A stretch of 64,000 nt of DNA from Lethocerus indicus (lineage: Eukaryota > Arthropoda > Insecta > Hemiptera > Belostomatidae): positions 8,855,393-8,919,392 of the forward strand of contig JACDQD010000002.1 in assembly GCA_019843655.1 (NCBI GenBank). Direction: 5' to 3'. The notes beneath the pieces were generated by a model, which had not been told where the DNA came from, did no database searches, and saw only the letters and a list, made by a program, of their open reading frames with translations. The position numbers and the translations under genes are program-made. Below, in pieces: positions 5,771-57,502 of this stretch (within the stretch, counting starts at the first letter, position 1; the number at the start of each line of letters is the position of its first letter).

Positions 5771-5858
5771 TACGGTTCAGAGGAGTTTGGACACGACTCG
5801 CCCAGGTACACCTCGCCCAAAGCCTCAAGTATATACCCACCTGAACCATACTACCTAG
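5771..5858 (+). CDS. da: da exon: SPRYTSPK segment
   Basis: Acceptor TTTTGTTCCAG, donor AG/GTAAGC; 88 nt read in phase 0 and leave one nucleotide. The translation [17 protein letters not shown] followed by [12 protein letters not shown] aligns with the conserved DSPGYPSSKP-type stretch of vertebrate TCF4/TCF12 and its insect counterpart, between the two activation domains. The entry frame is set by continuity with the next exon (split Glu codon G/AA). Confidence 0.9.
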
Positions 5859-7436
5859 GTAAGCATTAATTTATTCATTTTGAATATGAGTATAAGAATG
5901 CGAAACTATAGAAAAGCAGTAAACTTACTAAGCGTTTTCTATGGATTCTCTCTCTTATTGATTTATTCATTTTATATACAATCAACTGTTATTCCAGTTA
6001 CGGGTTCTACAAATTATTTTTGATCGATCCGTAATGAATTCGGTTGTCCCGTAACTAATAGTTACTAATATAAATTTAATTCATTTAATTTTATTGTATA
6101 TAAATTAATCTCAAATAATAAGGACACAACGAATTCTACTCGCCAACCCTTTGTACAGGTGCCGGTTCCGTGTTCAGTTTCCTGCGGCGGGTGACAAAAT
6201 TGTTTTTCAATCAGTTTTGTATTTGAATTGAGGTTAGCTAGTCTGACTATGTAACCTTAATATGTTGTCTACCAAATGACCTGTTAATATTTACACTGAC
6301 TATTATTTTTACCCGAATGATGTTTGCTTATTTATTAACTTATTTCATTCGAACCTTGGACTTCATAAATTTTAGTGAGGACAACATTTAATTTAGTTTT
6401 ATACAACTGGCGTAGTTGCGGGTTTTAATATCGATTCTAATTCTGATGACATAGTTATGATGAACAAAAAAGACCTTGCTAACAAACTATCTCATCGGTC
6501 GGTTGTTTAAAGGTCGAATACCAGAGTCAATGCCGTCACCGCTTACCGCCATTCGGAAGTCCCCTTTTTAATTTTCCTCTTTAGCTACTCGCTACATCTG
6601 TTATAAGAATGATGCTTTCAGTTTGCATATCTCTAACAATATTGAGTGTTTAGCTTTTGGGAAGATGACCGAAGGTGAAAATTATACCTGTTCACCCTTA
6701 TAAAGTTTATTGAAAGAATACAAATTGTTGCAAGTACAATAACGTTAAGAAAACATTTTTAAGTTCAAGGAAATAAGTTTTTAAATGTAACAAAGTGAAT
6801 GAAAAATGAAACTATTTACTATAACCCATTCTATGGTAGCTATTACGCTTATTAGTACTCTTAAGATAAAATAAATCATAACGTATTAAGAATATACGGT
6901 GTTATATTTGTATTTACCTTTCGATGAAGTGTAGGTGTGATGCTCTTTTCTCAAGTATAAGAGCCGTTTAGAGGGGTTTTGAGGATAGTTTGTCCTGTCG
7001 GCCGGTTATCAGGGCTTCTACGCCTGGATTCACCTGCAACAACCCTTTATTAACTGATTTATTGACGGTGCCATCACCGCCGCTTACTTCACTTCATCCT
7101 TTTGTTTCGCCCGGGCATTACTTCAACCCGGTATTTTCAGTCAAAATTATTATATTATTTATCCGAGCGATTGTTATTTGCACCTTCTGCAAGCTAAAGT
7201 TTTATTCGCAAACCTATGTGCTGATTATTGATAAGCTGTTTTTGTCTATTCATGTTTCTGATTCTGAAATAAGATGGTATCATTTCGGTTGGAAGTTTAA
7301 AAAGTAATTATTCTTCGACAAAAGTTTCGTTCAACCCCAGAGAAATCACTTTACGTCCTAAATTGCTCCTAATAATATTTAATGCTTTCGCATTTACTGA
7401 TTTATTGCAATAAACTAATAAACATTTAAGGTCGTG

Positions 7437-7479
<43 letters not shown>

Positions 7480-10400
7480 TGATAATGATAGGCAACATAC
7501 AGACGTTTGAAATATGCGGTGCTACTTTATTTACATTCTACATCCCCGGCTGGTTCATATGTTAAACCTCGTTCGAAAAATTTAGGTCAGCAAGTATAAC
7601 TGGCGTACTCAAATATATAAAGTATATTCGCTTTTTTCTGTTTCAGAAAATGGAAGCAATGGTGCTGAATCGTGGACGGGCCCCGGTCCTTATTACGGGG
7701 CAGGACCCACCACGACACCCTACCCAACACCACTACACCATGACTCCATGGTATGTACCCGTTAGTGAAAACATTAAAATTGCTTTTTTCGCGCTCGACT
7801 CTGATTTTATATATTTAAATGACCGATGCGGGAAATAATAAGGTTAATAAAATGCCGATAACTGGTGACTACAACGTAAGCGCTAGTTTATCTGATCAGT
7901 TAGATAATTATACCCCATGGGGAAAACGTCACCGATATTTCGAGGAGTACGATTTTCAATAATATCCATAAGTTCCTTGGGTTGATTTTATTGAGGCCTG
8001 ACCGAACTTAGATTAGACGTTATTTTGCACCTTTTTATACTGTATATTTTGTGTATTTGTTGCAGGGTTACGGCGGCCGAGTGTCACCACCGGGCAGTAG
8101 CGGGGGTGAGCCGCCGTTGCCGCCGATGTCCTCTCTACGGGGAGTGCCACCTCACTCCACCACTTCCCCCGCACCCATCTACCTCTCCCCGCCCCCCCAG
8201 CCCTCCGACACACTAGTCGGCAAGGCACTCGCTTCAGTCAGTACATTTCTCTTTATTTCCTTTATGAATAAACCTTACTCTACTACCATATTTTCACCCT
8301 TACAAATATTAAACATCCAAAGTTTTAGTTATTCTTATGTTTACAGTTTATTTGAATAAACAATAAAATTTGTTGGAGAAAAAAATCTGTGATTTACTGT
8401 TAATGAGAGATGTTTACCTGGAATAGTTATAATGACTAAATAGTTATAATACTTGCATATTCATTTCCTCTCTTGTGCTGACTCCATTGCCTTTTGGCTA
8501 GGTCAAATTATACATAATTATTTTATAACTTGTGGCTATTGCTTAGCTTCCTTGTCCGACTGGTATTGTGATGTAAATCATGGTGGTGTCCTATCAATAC
8601 CAGGTAGTATTTGTTACCAGAATTGCCAAACAGTAATGAATATTTGAAAAAAATATAGATATGCTAAATTAAATATTAGGTTTTCATTATCCAGATGAGG
8701 TTATTTAAAATGTGGACTGTGCTGAGTAGTCTTCTGTCATACCTATTATTTTTCACAGTGTAAAACTACTCATATTAGGAATATAATGTGCAAAGCATTA
8801 TTTATAATCATCAAATATTATCTGCAATCATGGTGCTTATGATATTGAGCAATGAAATTTAAATCCTGATAGTATTTAATTAGTATTTAAGTCCTGACTC
8901 ATCCAGTCATAGTAATAATTTTCTGGAGAGGTCCATTTCAGTTTTGGCCACTGTGGTGTTATAAGTTCTGTTATGGATTAGGTAGAGGGAGAAGTTAGCC
9001 AGTTTAACTAACTTCAAGTCACCTGTTTGTTCAACCATAATTGTAAAGTCAAGTGCAGATGACCATTGTCATCCTGCAGGAGTAGTTTCCCTTCTTATTG
9101 TTAGTTCATGTCTCCAGTTGAGGGGAGAAGGGGACGATTTCCTTCCAGTTGTCTCCACTCCCTTATTGTAGCCATAGCCTAAAGTCAGGCATGGAGTATA
9201 GACATCAGGCTTTCCACTCGGTATTGAGTATTAATATTCTCTCACTATAATTTATTGGTGTTCACACTAAATTGGTTTGACCTAATTTTTCAATTCAGTT
9301 GCTTTAAATAAAAGTATTTTCTTTTTTTCTACCCATATAATTAAATGTATTATTCAATACATGTAATAATTATATGAACTGAATAGACAGATATGTACTA
9401 GTATTATGTATCTGCTTTAGTAATTGTTTGTGCTTTTGTGTCAGTACAAAAGTCATAACCACAGGAAATAATTAATGAGTTTAATTCAAAATCCATTCAT
9501 TACACACTTAATTTACATTGGTCATAGGCATTATTAGGCATAATTGTCATTCTTAAGTTGACATTTGTCACTGTTCCTTACAAGTTGCAGTTGAATACAT
9601 TTTTGAAAATGCATAATGGTACTTTTATGGTGGGTACAAATTTGTGTATAAACACTTTGTTGCATATTATTCTATGGAAAGTTTTAAACCTCATATTAAC
9701 TAAATGACTTATTTCAACTTCTTTAAAGCTATGTTTTTCTTTCTGTGTTACTTATTTTATTTGTGCAACTGTTACAGATTTACCCAACTGAACAGTCAGC
9801 TAGCAGTTACAGTAGTAATCCTTCAACGCCAGTGAGTTCTCCACCTCCATTGCAACAAGGGGGTGGCGGCGGAGGTGGTGGTTGGGGAGCACCTCACTCA
9901 CCTCACTTCCCCCAGGATGCCAGAGCCGCCCCTCCTCCACCTCCATCAATACACATGGTCAGTACTTTACATTTCCAACTTATTTGCATGCTTTGTTGTG
10001 CTGTTCACTTCCTGCTGTCTGTTCCTTACATGACCGTCTCTGTTGTCCTAATCAAGTTGCTCCTCGCACCTTTTTCTCCACTATTTTATTTTCTTCAGTG
10101 TCCATTTAACATGTGTAATATGTAATAATTCTCCATATCTGAATAAAATTTCTAATTTTAACAATTCTTTTCTTTTAACTAGTATGTAAGTTTCCAATAC
10201 ATTGTGTGACCTATGAACATTTGAGGCAAAGTATGATTAGCCTTTTTTGTCATTAAACTTTTTGATTAAAGAGAGCCCTTGTAGAGATATATAAAAAGTT
10301 GACTAAAGGTGATATTTTGTTTCTGGTGCAAATTGAAATAAGTATGGGATGCATGTGTCATATATAGAATCAGCTTCTACAAACTCTTACTTTTTTATAA

Positions 10401-12348
10401 GTTCTTTTTTTTACTTCAGAAATGAGTTAGACAGAGCTTTTTATAAATAATTTTGTAGAAATATGGTAATTTGTGATGAAAATATGAAATGAAATAAATT
10501 ATCTGTAATTATGTTTGATATAGAAGATGGTGATATTAATAAACATACAAAACCAAACAGTGATTTATGTGAGTTTAATACTAGTCCTATAGTTCCTTTT
10601 CTCTCTTTTTTGTAAACCCAAATCTACTTTATTTGACCTGCGGAATAAGTTTATTTTTATTGCACATTTTAATTTTGCATGTTTCTGTAACACTTTTTGT
10701 TTGCATTGGTTTGCGTGTGTTTATTTTATGCATATTTTGTTTTATTTGTGTCTGTGTGGACAGCCTCCACAGCCTGCGGCAGCTCCTGAAGAACAGAGAC
10801 TGGATGATGCAATTGGCTTCCTTAGGGATCATGCAGAGGTCAGTTCATTGTCTAATTATTGCACTAATTATTTCCTTTTGTTTTTTTACACTGGCCACCA
10901 ACCTTTACTTTGTGTTACCACCTTTGAAAATTCCTCTTACTCTTAAACTGGTTCATATTCCTGCATGAAATTCAAGAAAACACTGTTTGTTGTTTTACAC
11001 TATATGCTCAAGAAAGTCTCATATTTCACCTAGGAGAAACTTCAAAATTTTTCAGGTATGAAAGAAATTGTATTTTCTGGCTTTTCTCATTTTGTTCTTG
11101 AAATTTAACTTTTAACATTTTTATATTTAAAGATGGAAGAAAAATTTTAAATACTAATAAATGTTTCTCATACATTATTTTTGTAAATATTGTACATATA
11201 TTCATATTTGTATATAGCTGTTATAGCCATACCATAATACAGGGCCTATTATAGGTAAACATTATTTCAGATGGAAAACTGGATGTAGCTGTCTGTGTTA
11301 ATTATTCTGGTTAAGGAAGGTCATTAATAAATCTAAGTTGTCTGTTTGGGAGTTCATGAAAGTTTGGAATACATCATTCTTGCACACTTTTTTCTCAACT
11401 TTCTGGTTTGGTAATACACTAGATCGGTTTCTAGAACAGTGCAATGATTGTACAATCAGAATGATTCATCAGTAGCCATTATACTTTACCACTTTAGTAA
11501 CAGAATGATACTGACAATTTCAAAAAGTCGAAGTCCAGTGTAAAACCAGCCTAGTGAGTGGAGACAGAAGATTGCAAGAGTGAGGTTATTTATCAATTAT
11601 GTATTGTTGATGGGAGTACAGAATACAATCTGTGATCAAAGAAGTGGGGAATTATCCAAAGTTCATGAAAACTTTAAACAATATATTTTTTTCTCTGTAT
11701 TTATTTACTGCACAAATGTGCCTGATGCCACTATGCGCGGTGAAACAATATTTTAAATCTTACTTATAGTCTATTGGTGTTATAATTATTGATAAATGTA
11801 AGCAATATAGTAGTTAAATAGAATCTACTCATGTTTTTATGCTGCAGTTGTATACAGTTATGTTCCTATATATTTCGTATAGTGCATATTTAATAGATTT
11901 ACTTTATTAAATTTATTTGAATGTTGTTACCATAATATTTCTAATCTTTCTGACTGAACAAATATGGATCTACAATTTAAAAATTGAGCTGATTAGCAAA
12001 TGATTGTATTGAGTTGGAATTACTAATAAGTCCTGTTGTATTATTTCTGCACAGGGTACAAAAATGGCTGAGAGATTAGATGATGCTATAAATGTATTAA
12101 GGAACCATGCAGAAAGCCAGTTGTTGCAACAACAGCAGCAAAACCATCCACAGCCACCACCTCAACCCACCACAGGATTACCACATTGTACACCCCCTTT
12201 ATACCACAATACTCTAGACCTGGTGGGTTTTTTTTACTTATTACTATCATCTATGAAATCCAATTATATTACCATCTACATTTACAATAATTAAAATAAA
12301 GATAGCAGTGTAATTGTTTGAAATAATGTGCTGTATCTATCTATCCAT

Positions 12349-12411
<63 letters not shown>

Positions 12412-15400
12412 TTTGAATTTGTATATAGTGGTTGATTGTAAAGAGTAGTTGTGTACTAAAATAATTCATGTATTTGTCAACTTAGGCAAGTCCTCATGCA
12501 GTGTACAGTGGCATTTCAGCTAGTGACATTGACCCTGTCAAACTAGATAGGTTGACTACAGCAAGTAAGTAAATTAAACTTAACTTATAAATTTTCAACT
12601 GCCAATATTTAGTATTTTATTAATTTTGCATGATTTATTGTTATCATGTTTTCTTGAACATTTTTAATATTAAATATATATGATTTATAAAATCACAAAA
12701 AGTATACAAATGTTTTTTTATATTTTTGTATCCTCTAGTAGAAAAACTTTAGTGGTATAGTATTATTATGTAACTGTTCTCCTGATAAATAAAAACCCGA
12801 CATATTTTATTTTTATAATTTTTCTGATATCAGTTTATAGAATTTTCATAATTAGTTATTTTTATATATTAATTATACATTATGGCAGAGTCAAAATTGG
12901 ACATTAATTATTTATTTATTTGTTTCCAGAAAAAAGAAAGGAGCCACCAGACTGTGATTCCAAACCAAGTAGTAGTGACCTAGTTGTTACATCCCCACAA
13001 CCGAATATGGTCAATAAATCTGTCAAACGTGTCAGAAGATAGTCAGTATTCATTTTTTCATATTTTAAAAGCAATGTTTCTTCTTTCAAACATGTAAGCA
13101 TTTTCTGTCAGGAGTTCTCTCTAGGGGTGTGCTAGTAGAAAAGTCAAATCACTGGAAGCAGAGTATGTACAAGTAAAATATACTCTCAGAAATATTTTGA
13201 AGTTTTAAAGATTTTATATTAAGTGGAGCAATCTTTAAATGTTTCCTTGAATAGATTTCATTTGTTTAATTACTGGACAGTCATATGAGAGAGTTCTTTT
13301 TTAATTAATTTTTTCTATCTTTTTAAACCTAACAGAAATATGGGCATTCAATTAATTTTCTTGGTGTATATTAGAGACACAATTAAACAGGCAAATTTTA
13401 AAGCCAAATACTAAGTCTGTAGTTGTAAGAATCAGTCACAATATCTTTTTTTTGATAATACACATTGGAAGAAATGTCTCTATTTCCTTTTTTGCACTAA
13501 CGATTCTTATATCTAATATTTATATGTTTATTTTCATCCTAAAAATTTGATATTTTAATGCTATTTTGGATTTTACCTGCTTTGTGCAAATTTGCACAAA
13601 GAAAAAAATTCAAGTTGTGAACTAGAGTAGAATATTTTGTTATTAATCTTGCTATACTTTGAATTTGATTGTTTTCAGGAATTGCATGAAGAGACATTGC
13701 GGGTAATTGTGCCAGTTTGGATGCCTTATTTGATGTCAAATGCACGAGTGCTATGCTGATTGTTTAGATTGTTTTATTTTCATTTTTCTGTCTCAGGCTC
13801 CTACTCAAAATCCCTGATGAAACTGCACACCTCTAGTTATGATCTCCTGTCCTATGTACCATTGGTTTTTGTGATGTGAAGATTAATTTTCAGAGTAGTT
13901 TAAATTACAACAAGCCCCATTACATGACAACTAAACATATACACACATAAAATACACATGTGCACTCGCATAAGTACACAAACTCCAAGCCAGAAAATTT
14001 TTGAAAAATGTACGAGAGTATTGTGTTTTTATAGTTGTTCGAGTGCTGAAGATGAAGATGGGGAAGACCCAAGTATGAAGGCACACAGAGAAAAAGAGAG
14101 AAGACAAGCCAACAACATCAGGGAAAGGTGAGACAGAGAGTGCTACTACCATTTCACAATCTCTTAAAATACTACATATTTTGTATTATTACTTGCCTTT
14201 AGCATGTACACATAATGATGTATATATTCTGTGAGTTCATTTATACAGACATATACACATTCACAAACAGTTATACACTCTGATCATTGTCCAATTAGAG
14301 TAGTTGCAGAACTGTAGTAGTGGTGATAGTGTCATGGTAGTTAGGATTACGTGGTAATTTTTGTCCCAAACATGTTGGCATAGCATTCGTGTTTGAATGA
14401 CTCATTGGCATTTCAAATGGCCTCGTATTTTGTAGTTTTTCATTTTCAAATAAAGATAAAATGAATCTAAAAAAAATAGACACATTAACATATACAATGT
14501 TCTAAAATTTAAAGAGTGGAAAATTGTATCCATAAACCTGTTATATATCAGGAAAACAAACATCCATGGGTTGTTGTTTTTATTATGATGGATGGTACTA
14601 AAACAGGAGAAAAATAAAAATTATCAATTGCACATACAGCTTCAAATGAAACTAAAAATACTGTAGAGAAATATTTTCAAAGAATTGGGTAAATATGTTT
14701 AAAAATGTGTAGAAATTATTGTAAAAATTTTGTACCTCGGACCAAGAGTTTCCAATATAAGTTTGATAAAACTGATAATAAAAAATTTAGAATTTAGAAA
14801 GATGAATCTTGAATTGCACAGGAATTGTCTCTGCTTTATCACTTGTGAACCTGTTAATCTGTATTTGATAATGGCGTACTCTCAGGGTCTATGTGTAAAA
14901 TGATCATTAGATAGTTGAACAAAGGTTATTTTTTGTTAAATAACTTTCCTAATAAAAAAAATATTTCTGTTAATCAGAAAATACAATTTTGAACTTAATA
15001 TCAATTAACATTATTAGTTAATGCTTAGTATCTGATGATTATTAGTTATTAACCTTTGTTAATAATCAGGTAGGGATAGGAATGTAAGGGACTTATTCAA
15101 CTGCTCCTTTTTTCTTGCCTAAATTAGATGAGTCATTACTCATTTCAGAAAAGTCGATTTGGTTTTTATCAGTTATTTGATTAAAACTACTAGAAGGAAA
15201 TACCTATTTAGCAAAGCAGTATTGTAGAATAATGTTTATGTTACTTGATGGATCTGTTCTTTCCTGTGTAATATATTAAAGGGATCAAATAATTTTTTCT
15301 CATAAATAATTTGAGTTAAAATTACTTGCCATACTCTGCTTGGTATCAGTAAATGACAAAATATAGATGCTGATCACACTATTAGCCTGCCCTTTCATTA

Positions 15401-18400
15401 CTTGGTTTCTCTCCATTGTGCAGATCTTAGAAACTGACTTTGCACCATACAGTTGCAACTGCTCTATATTGGCTTGTACCTCTTGAAAGCATTCTAAATT
15501 CAACCTGAAGCATGTTTTTGTCATAATCTGATACAATTTAGTTAACCTTTGTTGTTAGTTTTCTTGTCATGTTTCCTTGCATTTTGATAGCCATTATCAC
15601 AATAAGAATAGAAGAAAAATTGTCAGCATAATTATATATTTTGTAATATATTTTATGTATTGTGTTATAATATTGTTATTAATTTAGCCATTAAGATTGT
15701 CATAATCATGAAATTAAGTGCTTTATTAAAGTTGTTAGTAAAAATATACATTCAGTCTTATGCTATTCTTCTAATCAAAACTAGATGAGTTCTTCTAATC
15801 TACAATATTTGTAGAAATGTTGGTGCAAAGTCAGATTTCATGCTCTCTGATAGATTTTCCTCAATTTTTAAATATGTTGGTTGGAAATTTTGATTGCAAC
15901 AATGGTGTGTGCTGTATTTTATTGCTCCATTAATTTGGAAAATAATTATATTAATATAAATTTCTGAGCATACATCATAATTGCTGTAAAATGTTTCATT
16001 TTTATAAAAAATGTATTATATGTTTAATATTTAAATGAGGACAGAGTTTGATATTGGTTGACTTTTATGTTAAATAATTTTAATCCTTTATAAAGTATTT
16101 ATTATAAATCAAGGTTTTCAAAATCATTTGAAAAATTAATTAAAAATGCAACTTTTTATTATATTGGAATCTTGTGCAAATAATATTAAGGTTGTATACA
16201 TTTCATAAAATGAAAAGTAAATATTTATGCAATGAAATTTGTGATATTTGGTTAAATTTGTTAGTCAATAAAGTCTTAGAGTAAAGAGAGTACAGAAAAT
16301 TCATAATTCTTACTAAATGTTAATAATGTCAAACTTTGTCCCTACCTTGTTTTTTTTACTAATTATAACAGTAAATAGTGCTCAAAAAATAAATGGAACT
16401 GTTAAGTGAATTATGTTGTTGATTAATTAGAAATGATCTGTTCAGAAATATTTCAGATTTTAGAGATTAATTGCCAAATACTATCCATTTTAAATAGTGT
16501 ATGTAATCCGTAAAGCCTGGGCATAAAATAAGAATTCACATAAAAGGGTTTTATTTTGGGCACTGTTTCTGTTATTTTTTTCTTCAATTCGAACATCCTG
16601 TAAAACAGAATCAATTGTTAGATCTGTTATGTATAATAGATTAGTCCATTTATCTTAATATAGCGGGGAAAAAAATTCAGAGTGGCATCTATAAATTGTC
16701 CGCCATGCCTTATTTACATGTTTAAAATGTACACTGTCTGGATCAGTAATTGATATTATTATTTCCCATTCAGTATAATAGCAAATTATATTTTTGCTCA
16801 GTAACTATTTAAATAAGGTACAACAATTTGACAAAATGCTAATGTAATTAAATTATTTAAACTTTACATGATGTAAAGTCACATCTTGAAACAAGGCAAA
16901 TTTGAGCAATTATTTTCTACTAGAATAAATTTTGTGCATAAGTTAAAAATTTTAGTAGCAATATGAGATCAGATAAGTGATGTTAATTTTTATGTATAAA
17001 TGGTTTAAATGCATAAAATGGTATACCACTCTGATTATTTATTTCCCTTGTATAAAATGTAATTAAGATAAATAACTGGAAAAGTGACAATGTTGTTATT
17101 GGATGCATGTGTGTGTGTGTTGTGTACATGTAGTGAGGAAGAGGGGGATGATCCAGAATTGAAGGCACAACGAGAGCGAGAGAGGCGGCAGGCGAACAAT
17201 GCAAGGGAAAGGTAAACAACAAAACGAAAAACAGCATCTCCAATACAAGAACAACATTACATATCGTTTTGTTTACTATTGTTCCTAATTATTTTTTGTA
17301 ACGCCTTTAACAATATCATTATTGCCATGCATTGTCATCTTCACCATTCTCCTTTGACTGCTGCTGCTTACTAACTTTATCTCATTAATATTCACCCTGC
17401 CACACACACCCAGGAACAGAATTTGCTATACAGGAATATATAAATAATTATTTGATTTTATATTCCTTTTTATGGAAGATTCATAAAGGTTTTTTGAAAA
17501 ACATTATAATAAAATATTAATGTGCAGATGTGATTATATATTGTGCTCTAAGCTCTAAAAACAAACATGATACATTTAAAAATTATTTTAGGTATTTTAT
17601 TAATTGCAACCAATTTTCATGTATTTGATTAGAACATCTCTCACTTTCTAAAGCAAGAAAAGAACATGGATGTTCAGAACTATTTTTCTCACTTCAGCCA
17701 ATGTTTAATATAACAAATGCTTGCAAATTTGTTCTTAAGTGTGGCTATTTGGATTGTTACAATATAAAAGCTTTTCATTATTTCATTTTTTGATATATAA
17801 AAGATTTTGGTTTATGGGATTCTGTTAATTAATAATGGTTTCTCTTCTGATAAATGTGAAGCAGCTTTAAGTTATTGGATAATTGTTTCATCTATTCTAC
17901 TGTGACAGTTTTACAATAATGTGCATTAAAACAAGGGTGTGGAATTAACAGTTAATCATTTTTTTGTAAATTAATTTCTAAGTTATTACAAGTGTATTTA
18001 TTATTTCTAATTGCTAGTTTATGTGCAATAGAAGGAGTGTATATAAATTTATAATAAAATAGTTATCGTAGTTGTTAGCCATCAAGAATTCAGTTATTTG
18101 TCGAATCGAATTATACTTTTATCTTTTATATTATTTTTTTCATAAGTATACCAGTTTGAACAAGAAGAAAATAAAGATAGTTAAATTACAATTCTTGATT
18201 TAAATACATTACACTATGGTGTGTTTTATTATAATGGTTTATTGTTTGATATACTGGTTTCTTATCAAAACATTGTATGATTTCTTTATCGCTTTCTTAA
18301 TATAAGTTTGAAATAATTAGTCAATTATACTTATTGCTTATGAAATAATAGATTGGTTTACTTTTCAGAATAGAAAAAACCAAACTTGGAAACATTATAT

Positions 18401-18957
18401 AATTACATATATTAATTATGTTTTCAGGATTAGGATACGTGATATTAATGAGGCATTAAAGGAACTTGGTAGGATGTGCATGTCCCATTTGAAGACTGAC
18501 AAGCCTCAAACCAAATTAGGTATCCTGAACATGGCAGTAGAGGTCATTATGTCTCTTGAACAACAAGTTAGAGGTAACACATAGATAAATGGGATAATTA
18601 TGTGCACTCTTTTGTCAAACACTTTTTTCTGCACAAGCATGTGCATATATAAATCTTCAGATTATTTTATTTTGTATTCAATTTCAGAGCGTAACCTAAA
18701 TCCTAAGGCTGCATGTTTGAAGAGGAGAGAAGAGGAGAAATCTGAAGAAGGCCCTAAATTAGGCCACTTGGCTGCTATGCAAGGCCACCTCCCAGCTGCA
18801 GCACCTTTTCCTACATTACCACCTCCCGTATGTATATTTTTTGTTTGCAGAGAGAACATTTTTTTGCATAATTATTAAAGATATGAATTGTATAATAAAA
18901 TGTTTGAACTGCGTACAGGGTTCACAGGGTGGTTTGTCTCATGGAGGGCCTCAGTAG
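5771..18957 (+). CDS. da: daughterless-type E protein (class A bHLH transcription factor), 3' half of gene, multi-exon
   Basis: Nuclear class A bHLH factor that binds E-box DNA (CANNTG) as a homodimer or as partner of tissue-specific bHLH proteins such as Achaete-Scute, Atonal and Twist. Recognised from concatenated exons in family order: SPRYTSPK segment, proline/glycine linker ending GKALAS, STPV segment, AD2 helix RLDDAI..LR.HAE (two exon versions), acidic/basic linker KRVRRY, basic region (two exon versions), helix1-loop-helix2 with [16 protein letters not shown]-terminal block [17 protein letters not shown], short tail and TAG stop at 18955. Exons: 5771-5858, 7647-7750, 8066-8236, 9778-9957, 10764-10838, 12055-12222, 12486-12564, 12930-13041, 14035-14127 or 17134-17211, 18428-18573, 18688-18827, 18919-18957. 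Every junction has AG/GT borders and keeps one frame. The N-terminal AD1 half is outside the window. Exon ends are inferred without transcript evidence; family identity is essentially certain. Confidence 0.95.
5859..7646 (+). other. da intron with (AT)n microsatellite and low-complexity sequence
   Basis: 1.8 kb, CpG-replete, no coding recognised. It contains an (AT)18 array at 7439-7474. The open frame at 6990-7307 translates to no recognisable protein and is treated as noise. Confidence 0.75.
7439..7474. repeat. (AT)18 microsatellite
   Basis: Uninterrupted AT dinucleotide run inside the intron before the exon at 7647. Confidence 0.98.
7647..7750 (+). CDS. da: da exon: Gly/Pro/Tyr-rich linker
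   Basis: Acceptor CTGTTTCAG, donor ATG/GTATGT. The 104 nt complete the preceding split codon and end in phase 0. Reads [20 protein letters not shown] then a [14 protein letters not shown] tail, corresponding in position to the SDPWSSSSG region of vertebrate E proteins. Low-complexity disordered linker with no catalytic or binding motif. Confidence 0.9.
8066..8236 (+). CDS. da: da exon: LPPMSS...GKALAS segment, CpG-rich
   Basis: Acceptor TTTGTTGCAG, donor TCA/GTCAGT; 171 nt, 57 codons, phase 0-0. Contains LPPMSSLRG (compare LPPMSTFHR of vertebrate TCF4), a serine/proline-rich run, and ends in [10 protein letters not shown], which matches the conserved DALGKALAS motif that continues as IY in the next exon. 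Holds 15 CpGs by hand count, whereas the next 1,541 nt of intron hold about three. Confidence 0.95.
8237..9777 (+). other. da intron, strongly CpG-depleted
   Basis: AT-rich, no coding or known repeat recognised. CpG count is about three by eye, marking a sharp change of composition from the preceding exon. Confidence 0.8.
9778..9957 (+). CDS. da: da exon: IYPTEQ...[12 protein letters not shown] segment with Gly8 run
   Basis: Acceptor CAACTGTTACAG, donor ATG/GTCAGT; 180 nt, 60 codons, phase 0-0. [20 protein letters not shown] aligns directly with IYSPDH...[12 protein letters not shown] of vertebrate E proteins, next to the activation domain. An eight-glycine run then a WGAPHSPHF segment and five prolines follow, suggesting a flexible linker. 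Confidence 0.95.
9958..10763 (+). other. da intron
   Basis: AT-rich and CpG-poor; no gene, RNA or repeat recognised apart from short homopolymer runs. Confidence 0.8.
10764..10838 (+). CDS. da: da exon: AD2 (loop-helix) version 1
   Basis: Acceptor TCTGTGTGGACAG, donor GAG/GTCAGT; 75 nt, 25 codons, phase 0-0. Begins [11 protein letters not shown] and continues [14 protein letters not shown], the conserved amphipathic helix of E-protein activation domain 2 (RLDDAIHVLRNHA in vertebrate TCF4). The exon 12055-12222 carries a second copy of the same helix. Since both exons are phase 0 and multiples of three, either one, both or neither can be included without changing frame. Confidence 0.9.
10839..12054 (+). 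other. da intron between the two AD2 exons
   Basis: 1.2 kb, AT-rich and CpG-poor. No further copy of the AD2 helix or other coding segment found in it. Confidence 0.75.
12055..12222 (+). CDS. da: da exon: AD2 (loop-helix) version 2 with Gln/Pro-rich tail
   Basis: Acceptor TTATTTCTGCACAG, donor CTG/GTGGGT; 168 nt, 56 codons, phase 0-0. Encodes [17 protein letters not shown], closest to the canonical AD2 helix, followed by [16 protein letters not shown] and a [14 protein letters not shown] tail. Shares 11 of 16 residues with the helix encoded at 10764-10838. The GTGGGT donor is weak, consistent with regulated use or with a slightly different true end. Confidence 0.9.
12223..12485 (+). other. 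short da intron containing a long (AT)n array
   Basis: 263 nt of which about 60 are an AT/AC microsatellite at 12351-12411; acceptor CAACTTAG. Confidence 0.85.
12351..12411. repeat. (AT)n(AC)n microsatellite
   Basis: Uninterrupted AT run changing to ACACACACA at its 3' end, inside a short da intron. Confidence 0.98.
12486..12564 (+). CDS. da: da exon: linker between AD2 and basic region
   Basis: Acceptor TTGTCAACTTAG, donor AA/GTAAGT; 79 nt, phase 0 in and one nucleotide out. Reads [20 protein letters not shown] then DRLTTA. A short acidic/polar linker with no motif I can name, placed by frame continuity on both sides. Confidence 0.85.
12565..12929 (+). other. da intron
   Basis: AT-rich, CpG-free by eye; no other feature seen. 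Confidence 0.8.
12930..13041 (+). CDS. da: da exon: basic linker with putative NLS, ends in TA
   Basis: Acceptor TTTGTTTCCAG, donor TA/GTCAGT; 112 nt. Begins [17 protein letters not shown] and ends [10 protein letters not shown], the Tyr codon being split as TA plus the first base of the next exon. Two basic clusters (KKRKE and KRVRR) form a plausible nuclear localisation signal just before the bHLH. The terminal TA matters: splicing to either basic-region exon gives TAT (Tyr), whereas splicing straight to 18428 or reading into the intron gives TAG stop. Confidence 0.9.
13042..14034 (+). other. da intron, CA-rich near the exon 8A acceptor
   Basis: About 1 kb, CpG-poor. The last 100 nt contain an A/C-rich stretch (roughly 13936-13981) upstream of the acceptor TTGTGTTTTTATAG. 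No coding recognised. Confidence 0.8.
14035..14127 (+). CDS. da: da alternative exon 8A: acidic plus bHLH basic region, NNI version
   Basis: 93 nt, entering and leaving in the same phase as exon 17134-17211, donor AAAG/GTGAGA. Encodes (Y)[14 protein letters not shown] followed by the basic region [17 protein letters not shown], whose last Arg codon is completed by the helix exon at 18428. Arg, Asn and the E-box-reading Glu-Arg of the bHLH basic consensus are all present. The residue before RER is Ile where E proteins normally have Ala. The CSSAEDED lead-in resembles insect Da, so this may be the ancestral exon in position. Best explained as one of two mutually exclusive exons. Confidence 0.9.
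14128..17133 (+). other. intron between the two alternative basic-region exons
   Basis: 3.0 kb, AT-rich and CpG-poor. No extra basic-region copy found. It ends with a TG-repeat (17108-17125) directly before the exon 8B acceptor. The open frames at 14295-14483 and 15300-15536 on the minus strand match nothing known. Confidence 0.75.
17108..17125 (+). promoter_or_regulatory. UG-repeat in place of a polypyrimidine tract at the exon 8B 3' splice site
   Basis: The bases before the acceptor AG at 17132-17133 read TGTGTGTGTGTGTTGTGT then ACATGTAG. This is a weak 3' splice site. UG repeats at such positions are established targets of CELF/Bruno-type and TDP-43-type RNA-binding proteins, so regulated inclusion of the following exon is inferred. 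Confidence 0.5.
17134..17211 (+). CDS. da: da alternative exon 8B: acidic plus bHLH basic region, NNA version
   Basis: 78 nt, same entry and exit phases as exon 14035-14127, donor AAAG/GTAAAC. Encodes (Y)EEEGDDPEL followed by [17 protein letters not shown], with the canonical E-protein NNARER. It matches exon 8A at 18 of 26 aligned residues but is three codons plus two bases shorter at the acidic end and lacks CSS. Placed 3.0 kb downstream of 8A and 1.2 kb before the helix exon. Either exon completes the bHLH; inclusion of both keeps frame but changes the final Arg of 8A to Ser. Confidence 0.9.
17212..18427 (+). other. da intron before the helix-loop-helix exon
   Basis: 1.2 kb, AT-rich and CpG-poor; acceptor TTATGTTTTCAG. 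Nothing else recognised. Confidence 0.8.
18428..18573 (+). CDS. da: da exon: helix1-loop-helix2
   Basis: 146 nt, acceptor TTTTCAG, donor GAG/GTAACA. Completes the final Arg of the basic region, then [15 protein letters not shown] (helix 1), [14 protein letters not shown] (loop), [18 protein letters not shown] (helix 2). This is the dimerisation surface for homo- and heterodimers. The sequence is close to Drosophila Da throughout, which anchors the whole gene call. Confidence 0.98.
18688..18827 (+). CDS. da: da exon: post-bHLH conserved block
   Basis: 140 nt, acceptor CAATTTCAG, donor CCC/GTATGT. Encodes [18 protein letters not shown], the conserved domain C of E proteins directly after helix 2, then [20 protein letters not shown] and APFPTLPPP. 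The preceding intron is only 114 nt. Confidence 0.97.
18919..18957 (+). CDS. da: da terminal coding segment and stop
   Basis: After a 91-nt intron (acceptor ACTGCGTACAG), reads [12 protein letters not shown] and stops at TAG 18955-18957. The exon continues into the 3'UTR. If the preceding intron is retained the protein would instead end with 16 other residues (VCIFF...HNY) and stop at 18876-18878. Confidence 0.9.
   Translation, partial: GSQGGLSHGGPQ

Positions 18958-19593: not shown

Positions 19594-19651
<58 letters not shown>
19594..19651. repeat. (AT)29 microsatellite
   Basis: Uninterrupted AT run in the presumed 3'UTR. Confidence 0.98.

Positions 19652-24100: not shown

Positions 24101-27097
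<2,997 letters not shown>

Positions 27098-51429: not shown

Positions 51430-51483
<54 letters not shown>
51430..51483. repeat. (TA)27 microsatellite
   Basis: Uninterrupted TA run; it also creates the Tyr-Ile repeat of a spurious open frame. Confidence 0.98.

Positions 51484-57458: not shown

Positions 57459-57502
<44 letters not shown>
57459..57502. repeat. (AT)22 microsatellite
   Basis: Uninterrupted AT run. Confidence 0.98.

Follow-up and report, generated by a model that had tools for sequence, protein, structure and literature searches.

Among described genes, vertebrate TCF3 is one of the closest to the locus reported here. Its tandem homologous exons 18a and 18b, described as mutually exclusive, each encode a lead-in, a basic region and the helix-loop-helix (HLH), and splicing picks the version of the DNA-binding domain that makes E12 or E47 (PMC12585103, PMC11286708). 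Human TCF4 is likewise alternatively spliced just before the E-protein basic region (plus/minus isoforms, with RSRS before the basic helix-loop-helix, bHLH), but through a 12-nucleotide (nt) alternative donor and with no duplicated basic-region exon (PMC3137626). We analyzed a window of 64,000 nt from the hemipteran Lethocerus indicus (contig JACDQD010000002.1, positions 8,855,393 to 8,919,392, forward strand), which carries the 3′ part of the insect E-protein gene daughterless (da) in 13 exons on the plus strand (5771–18957; all positions are those of the window). Two of these, exon g1 (14035–14127) and exon g2 (17134–17211), each encode an acidic lead-in and a basic region ending in a split arginine, and both lie upstream of a constant HLH exon, h (18428–18573). 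The likeness to E12/E47 proposed in the original prediction, an annotation made from the letters of the window, extends to the gene family, to tandem homologous exons covering the lead-in and basic region, and to the choice of a DNA-binding version by splicing. Unlike in TCF3, where each alternative exon contains the basic region plus the HLH, only the basic half is duplicated in da and the HLH sits in the single, separate exon h. We consider it probable that g1 and g2 form an old tandem pair and serve as alternative basic-region exons, giving at most three DNA-binding forms of the Da protein; they are alternatives, yet probably not strictly either/or.

Two phase-matched basic-region exons followed by a constant HLH exon had been predicted, and both the anatomy and the reading frames bear this out, with coordinates, borders and phases exact. 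Exon f (12930–13041), the upstream partner common to g1 and g2, ends with AGA AGA TA (phase 2). Both copies open with the third base of the tyrosine codon begun in f (TA/T, the slash marking an exon border) and close with the AG of an arginine codon completed by the first G of exon h (AG/G), so that both have phase 2/2 and AG/GT borders (gtttttatag/TTGTTC...GGAAAG/gtgaga for g1; gtacatgtag/TGAGGA...GGAAAG/gtaaac for g2). As first counted, they share 18 of 26 residues: the split arginine common to both and 17 of the 25 residues encoded by whole codons. At the nucleotide level, 53 of the 75 positions in the aligned whole codons are identical, and 13 of the 22 differences fall at third positions. 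A tblastn search of the window with g1 retrieved g2 (E=1.6e-10), and the pair forms a 79-nt direct repeat, the longest among the 25 repeat families of the f–h interval; the likeness is therefore not due to chance. Nei–Gojobori estimates (pS 0.76, saturated; pN 0.19; 25 codons only) fit purifying selection of long standing. The two exons thus combine the same phase, homology, neighboring position and, from the sequence, usability of each alone, as tandem homologous alternative exons do.

Splicing of g1 and g2 in L. indicus was read from the genomic sequence alone. The joins f–g1–h and f–g2–h each encode an open E-protein bHLH (Pfam HLH scores of 46.3 and 47.9 bits, respectively, against a cut-off of 20.7), and f–g1–g2–h is also open and in frame. 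A direct f–h join, which the original prediction does not mention, creates a TA/G stop. Because the tyrosine codon is split TA/Y and the arginine codon AG/R (Y, pyrimidine; R, purine), a transcript using neither exon reads a TA/R stop, and one using both reads AG/Y, a serine, at the join. The introns measure 993 nt (f–g1), 3006 nt (g1–g2) and 1216 nt (g2–h), and all are GT-AG. With introns of this length and type, neither spliceosome incompatibility nor splice-site crowding would enforce exclusivity. We conclude that the exon anatomy is a safeguard against omission of both exons, not against inclusion of both.

To place the pair among relatives, we took the best 120 of 6021, 6601 and 6635 matches from three protein searches, which gave 218 distinct proteins: 140 named insect, seven insect-like, 41 crustacean, one annelid and 29 vertebrate. 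They represent clusters at 90% identity retrieved with chosen queries, and the counts of forms given here are not frequencies; the names served for a manual assignment to orders and species, and the listed proteins include no chelicerates, myriapods, mosquitoes or Drosophila. The 140 named insect proteins cover 94 species and nine orders (Hemiptera, Thysanoptera, Phthiraptera, Hymenoptera, Coleoptera, Diptera, Lepidoptera, Trichoptera and Phasmatodea). Both basic regions stood in tandem in 102 of them (70 species), while 35 were g1-only, two were g2-only and one, Popillia P0001, was odd in having its HLH copied twice. Double and g1-only forms were both listed in Bemisia, Daktulosphaira, Melanaphis, Aphis and Lygus. 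Six of the seven insect-like proteins were g1-only, and the remaining one (P0149) had the g2 basic region. Five g1-only proteins (P0081, P0117, P0118, P0120 and P0217) lie in continuous frames of 1.2–2.0 kb on contigs of 1.7–2.4 kb; since the da exons of the window span more than 13 kb, these are probably spliced transcripts. All three kinds of protein are therefore listed for insects, the g2-only kind thinly. The observation of a g1/g2 pair holds and applies more widely than first claimed. Anatomy and conservation give good support to the alternative use of two DNA-reading exons, and we infer the function of such use as set out below.

The original prediction knew of no described insect da with such a pair. 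In agreement, our search of the open-access literature, with subscription journals mostly outside its scope, found no description of it, although predicted proteins in public databases carry the pair in the nine orders. In the parts of the bHLH surveys accessible to us, a single basic-region intron is listed for ant da, with one E12/E47 member per species (PMC3527142), and one E12/E47 member is counted in a planthopper (PMC5126786), so that a second DNA reader is not counted there. A paper on sex determination in stag beetles lists da and, in its accessible part, is silent on the g1/g2 exons (PMC4802893).

Several points weigh against the view that all three forms are made. The double forms are for the most part predicted gene models, in which alternative exons can be joined by the gene builder; the 29 listed vertebrate proteins, mostly named TCF3 or E2-alpha (P0003 is named TCF4), are models with two basic-plus-HLH copies in a row and appear to join alternative bHLH exons in just this way. 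The g2-only form is represented by the ant gene models P0151 and P0154, plus P0149. The join between g1 and g2 counts in part: 78 of the 102 double forms have the serine that the split AG/Y codon predicts, a point in favor of the view, but the other 24 have arginine instead.

We then compared the residues that distinguish the two copies. When the 102 double forms were sorted by place, the first copy had V (100 proteins) or I (two, both Lygus) at a site where the second copy had A in 102 of 102; these place-sorted forms are the only independent sample, because the V/I-or-A residue itself decided how single forms and the column table were assigned to g1 or g2, which is circular. Isoleucine at this site was also found in the window g1 and in the g1-only forms listed from Ranatra, Lygus, Apolygus, Cimex, Rhodnius and Halyomorpha. 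In an alanine scan of human E47, the corresponding residue is numbered A553. That scan found R547, R548, N551, R554, E555 and R556 essential and left A553 out; R558 and V559 were also essential (PMC11286708). All six essential residues encoded by the duplicated exons are kept in both g1 and g2, so that g1-Da and g2-Da are both expected to bind DNA. Exon h supplies Arg and Ile at the positions of R558 and V559. The other differences within the 17-residue segment are confined to the third position (V/H/A/I versus Q/L/A/M) and to minor K/R changes, the remainder being nearly the same. Taken together, the difference between g1 and g2 would amount to a tuning of DNA binding. Among the vertebrate models, the fish proteins P0056, P0128 and P0157 have V, T or I at the A553 site in at least one copy, resembling insect g1.

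The original prediction held g1 and g2 to be likely mutually exclusive, as E12 and E47 are, in which case database entries with both exons would stem from annotation artefacts or from rare mis-splicing. Part of this stands, since omission of both exons yields a stop, and the stringing of two bHLH copies in the 29 vertebrate models suggests that such artefacts occur in E-protein predictions. A da locus with seasonal splicing may also speak for it: in Bicyclus anynana, two da exons upstream of a common exon follow a mutually exclusive wet-/dry-season pattern, detected by RNA sequencing and checked by polymerase chain reaction, with an absolute change in percent spliced in of 0.84 (PMC9218548). 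Judged from P0094, Bicyclus copies of g1 and g2 would measure roughly 93–96 nt if the borders were as in the window, and the amplicons of about 85 bp are compatible with exons of this size. That the seasonal exons are g1 and g2 is a guess, as the accessible part of the paper does not state what they encode (PMC9218548). Routine inclusion of both exons in one transcript had been named as one observation that would refute exclusivity, and both exons occur together in 102 of the 140 listed insect proteins across nine orders. Most of these are gene models, but they include the Lygus hesperus entries P0029 and P0072, which are listed without a genome contig and which we take to derive from transcriptomes. 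Double inclusion is in frame, and the long GT-AG introns offer no mechanical bar to it. Nor did pairing between introns give a clear signal: with an ungapped score and first-order Markov shuffles, 2, 44 and 60 of 60 shuffled versions attained the best score of the intron pairs A–B, B–C and A–C, respectively, a signal that is weak at best with three pairs tried. Strict exclusivity is, in our judgment, unlikely.

Less probable again is that g2 is an optional cassette behind a constantly included g1, so that g2-only Da is never made. The rarity of g2-only proteins (two of 140 named, one of seven insect-like) points this way, and so do the beetles, in which 20 of the 21 double forms have arginine at the join (20 of the 24 such proteins overall). 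On this evidence, the first base of beetle g2 would seem to be a purine; if beetle f ends with TA, joining it directly to g2 would then read a TA/R stop, and many beetles may be unable to make g2-only Da. In the window, however, f–g2–h is fully open. P0149, P0151 and P0154 have the g2 basic region without the g1 basic region, and further g2-only isoforms may hide within 90% clusters represented by a longer double form. In P0149, the place of g1 (residues ~400–430) is taken by an unexplained stretch (CSSADEEDPQILNIVKGDRKRVAFIS), followed by the g2 basic region; neither this insert nor the Lygus stretch preceding g2 had a convincing match in the window.

That one copy is a decaying, functionless duplicate is very improbable: the pyrimidine tracts at both acceptors are poor (9/18 each), but this reading is largely contradicted by conservation, as both copies are open and nearly invariant in the 70 species that have both, and one site differs consistently in 102 of 102 double forms.

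If g1 and g2 are alternatives that can also be used together, the spliceosome would join f to either exon alone, or to g1 followed by g2, before continuing in each case to exon h with the constant HLH. The resulting g1-Da and g2-Da would dimerize with the same partners and both bind E-boxes; the V/I-versus-A difference at the E47 A553 site and their distinct acidic lead-ins could give them different affinities or target choices. In the double form, g2 would read the DNA, because g2 alone is continuous with helix 1 and the g1 copy mostly loses its last arginine (RES); g1 would then form a charged insert immediately N-terminal to the basic region. An inhibitory domain has reportedly been found in vertebrate E12, and the g1 insert is comparable to it in place.

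The 41 listed crustacean proteins contain no g1/g2-type pair; each has one basic region, with A at the A553 site in 40 (NNARER) and Q in one barnacle (NNQRER). Their HLH varies instead: 35 have HLH2 only, two have HLH1 only (Penaeus indicus P0184 and Cherax P0200), and four gene models string both together. The decapod E-protein (TCF12-like) resembles insect da in gene family, in what is apparently the same border (RER/IRIRD) and in having one bHLH half in two versions; it differs in that the alternative half is the HLH and the basic region is single. In insects, E-protein genes therefore appear to vary the basic half, in decapods the HLH half, and in vertebrate TCF3 both together. No second HLH exon was found in the window by tblastn with five crustacean or annelid HLH1 queries. 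Models stringing two HLH exons came from a lobster, an ostracod, a barnacle, an amphipod and an annelid (P0002, P0008, P0035, P0058 and P0144).

Da is a partner of Achaete-Scute, Atonal and other tissue factors. If its DNA-reading half switches, target choice would be altered across many pathways at once, with partner choice untouched. The exons of da separate DNA reading from dimerization cleanly, unlike the TCF3 pair, and decapods provide the natural opposite. In Cotesia vestalis, da has 19 isoforms, one of them female-specific, the exon identity not being stated in the accessible part of the paper (PMC8228208). It is possible, though we would not count on it, that most insect orders have in Da not a single universal proneural partner but a splicing switch, with two or three DNA-reading versions sharing a constant dimerization domain under regulation by season, sex or tissue, that decapods mirror it with a constant DNA reader and a switched dimerization half, and that Drosophila lost the switch. 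To our knowledge, Drosophila da makes an A-type form only. Such a loss, if true, would explain why the switch stayed unseen.

The window da contains a second duplicated pair, absent from the original prediction. Exons d1 (10764–10838) and d2 (12055–12222), both of phase 0/0, each encode the E-protein motif LDDAIxxLRxHAE. Scored by motif patterns, d2 was present in 139 of the 147 listed insect or insect-like proteins (66 with d1 and 73 without), d1 alone in two, and neither in six. With 73 of the 139 d2 proteins lacking d1, d1 resembles an optional cassette. The ostracod model P0008 and the annelid model P0144 likewise contain LDDAI motifs in tandem, and the duplication of this motif may therefore be older.

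The gene belongs to the da class, having a bHLH with an E-protein basic region and tail. Its closest protein among the matches listed is Ranatra chinensis P0025, to which exon f is 89% identical (36 residues) and exon g1 94% (31 residues); exon g2 is 93% identical to P0149 (27 residues). The first recognized exon in the window, z (5771–5858), matches P0108 and P0149. It is followed by exons a (7647–7750; open frame, AG/GT borders), b (8066–8236) and c (9778–9957), by d1 and d2, and by e (12486–12564), which precedes f. Downstream of h lie exon i (18688–18827) and the last coding exon, j (18919–18957), with the stop TAG. The upstream N-terminal exon of relatives (MATSDDEPMHLYEVF...) had no tblastn match within the window, and the start of da seems to lie to its left.

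Elsewhere in the window, Rfam gave nothing at the gathering score, no transfer RNA was found, and ten long open reading frames between 27 and 59 kb matched nothing in Pfam at E up to 0.01. Pure dinucleotide arrays of 18–35 copies (AT, with one TG) occur at 7439–7474, 12351–12403, 19594–19650, 26984–27095, 51430–51483 and 57459–57502, two of them inside da introns.

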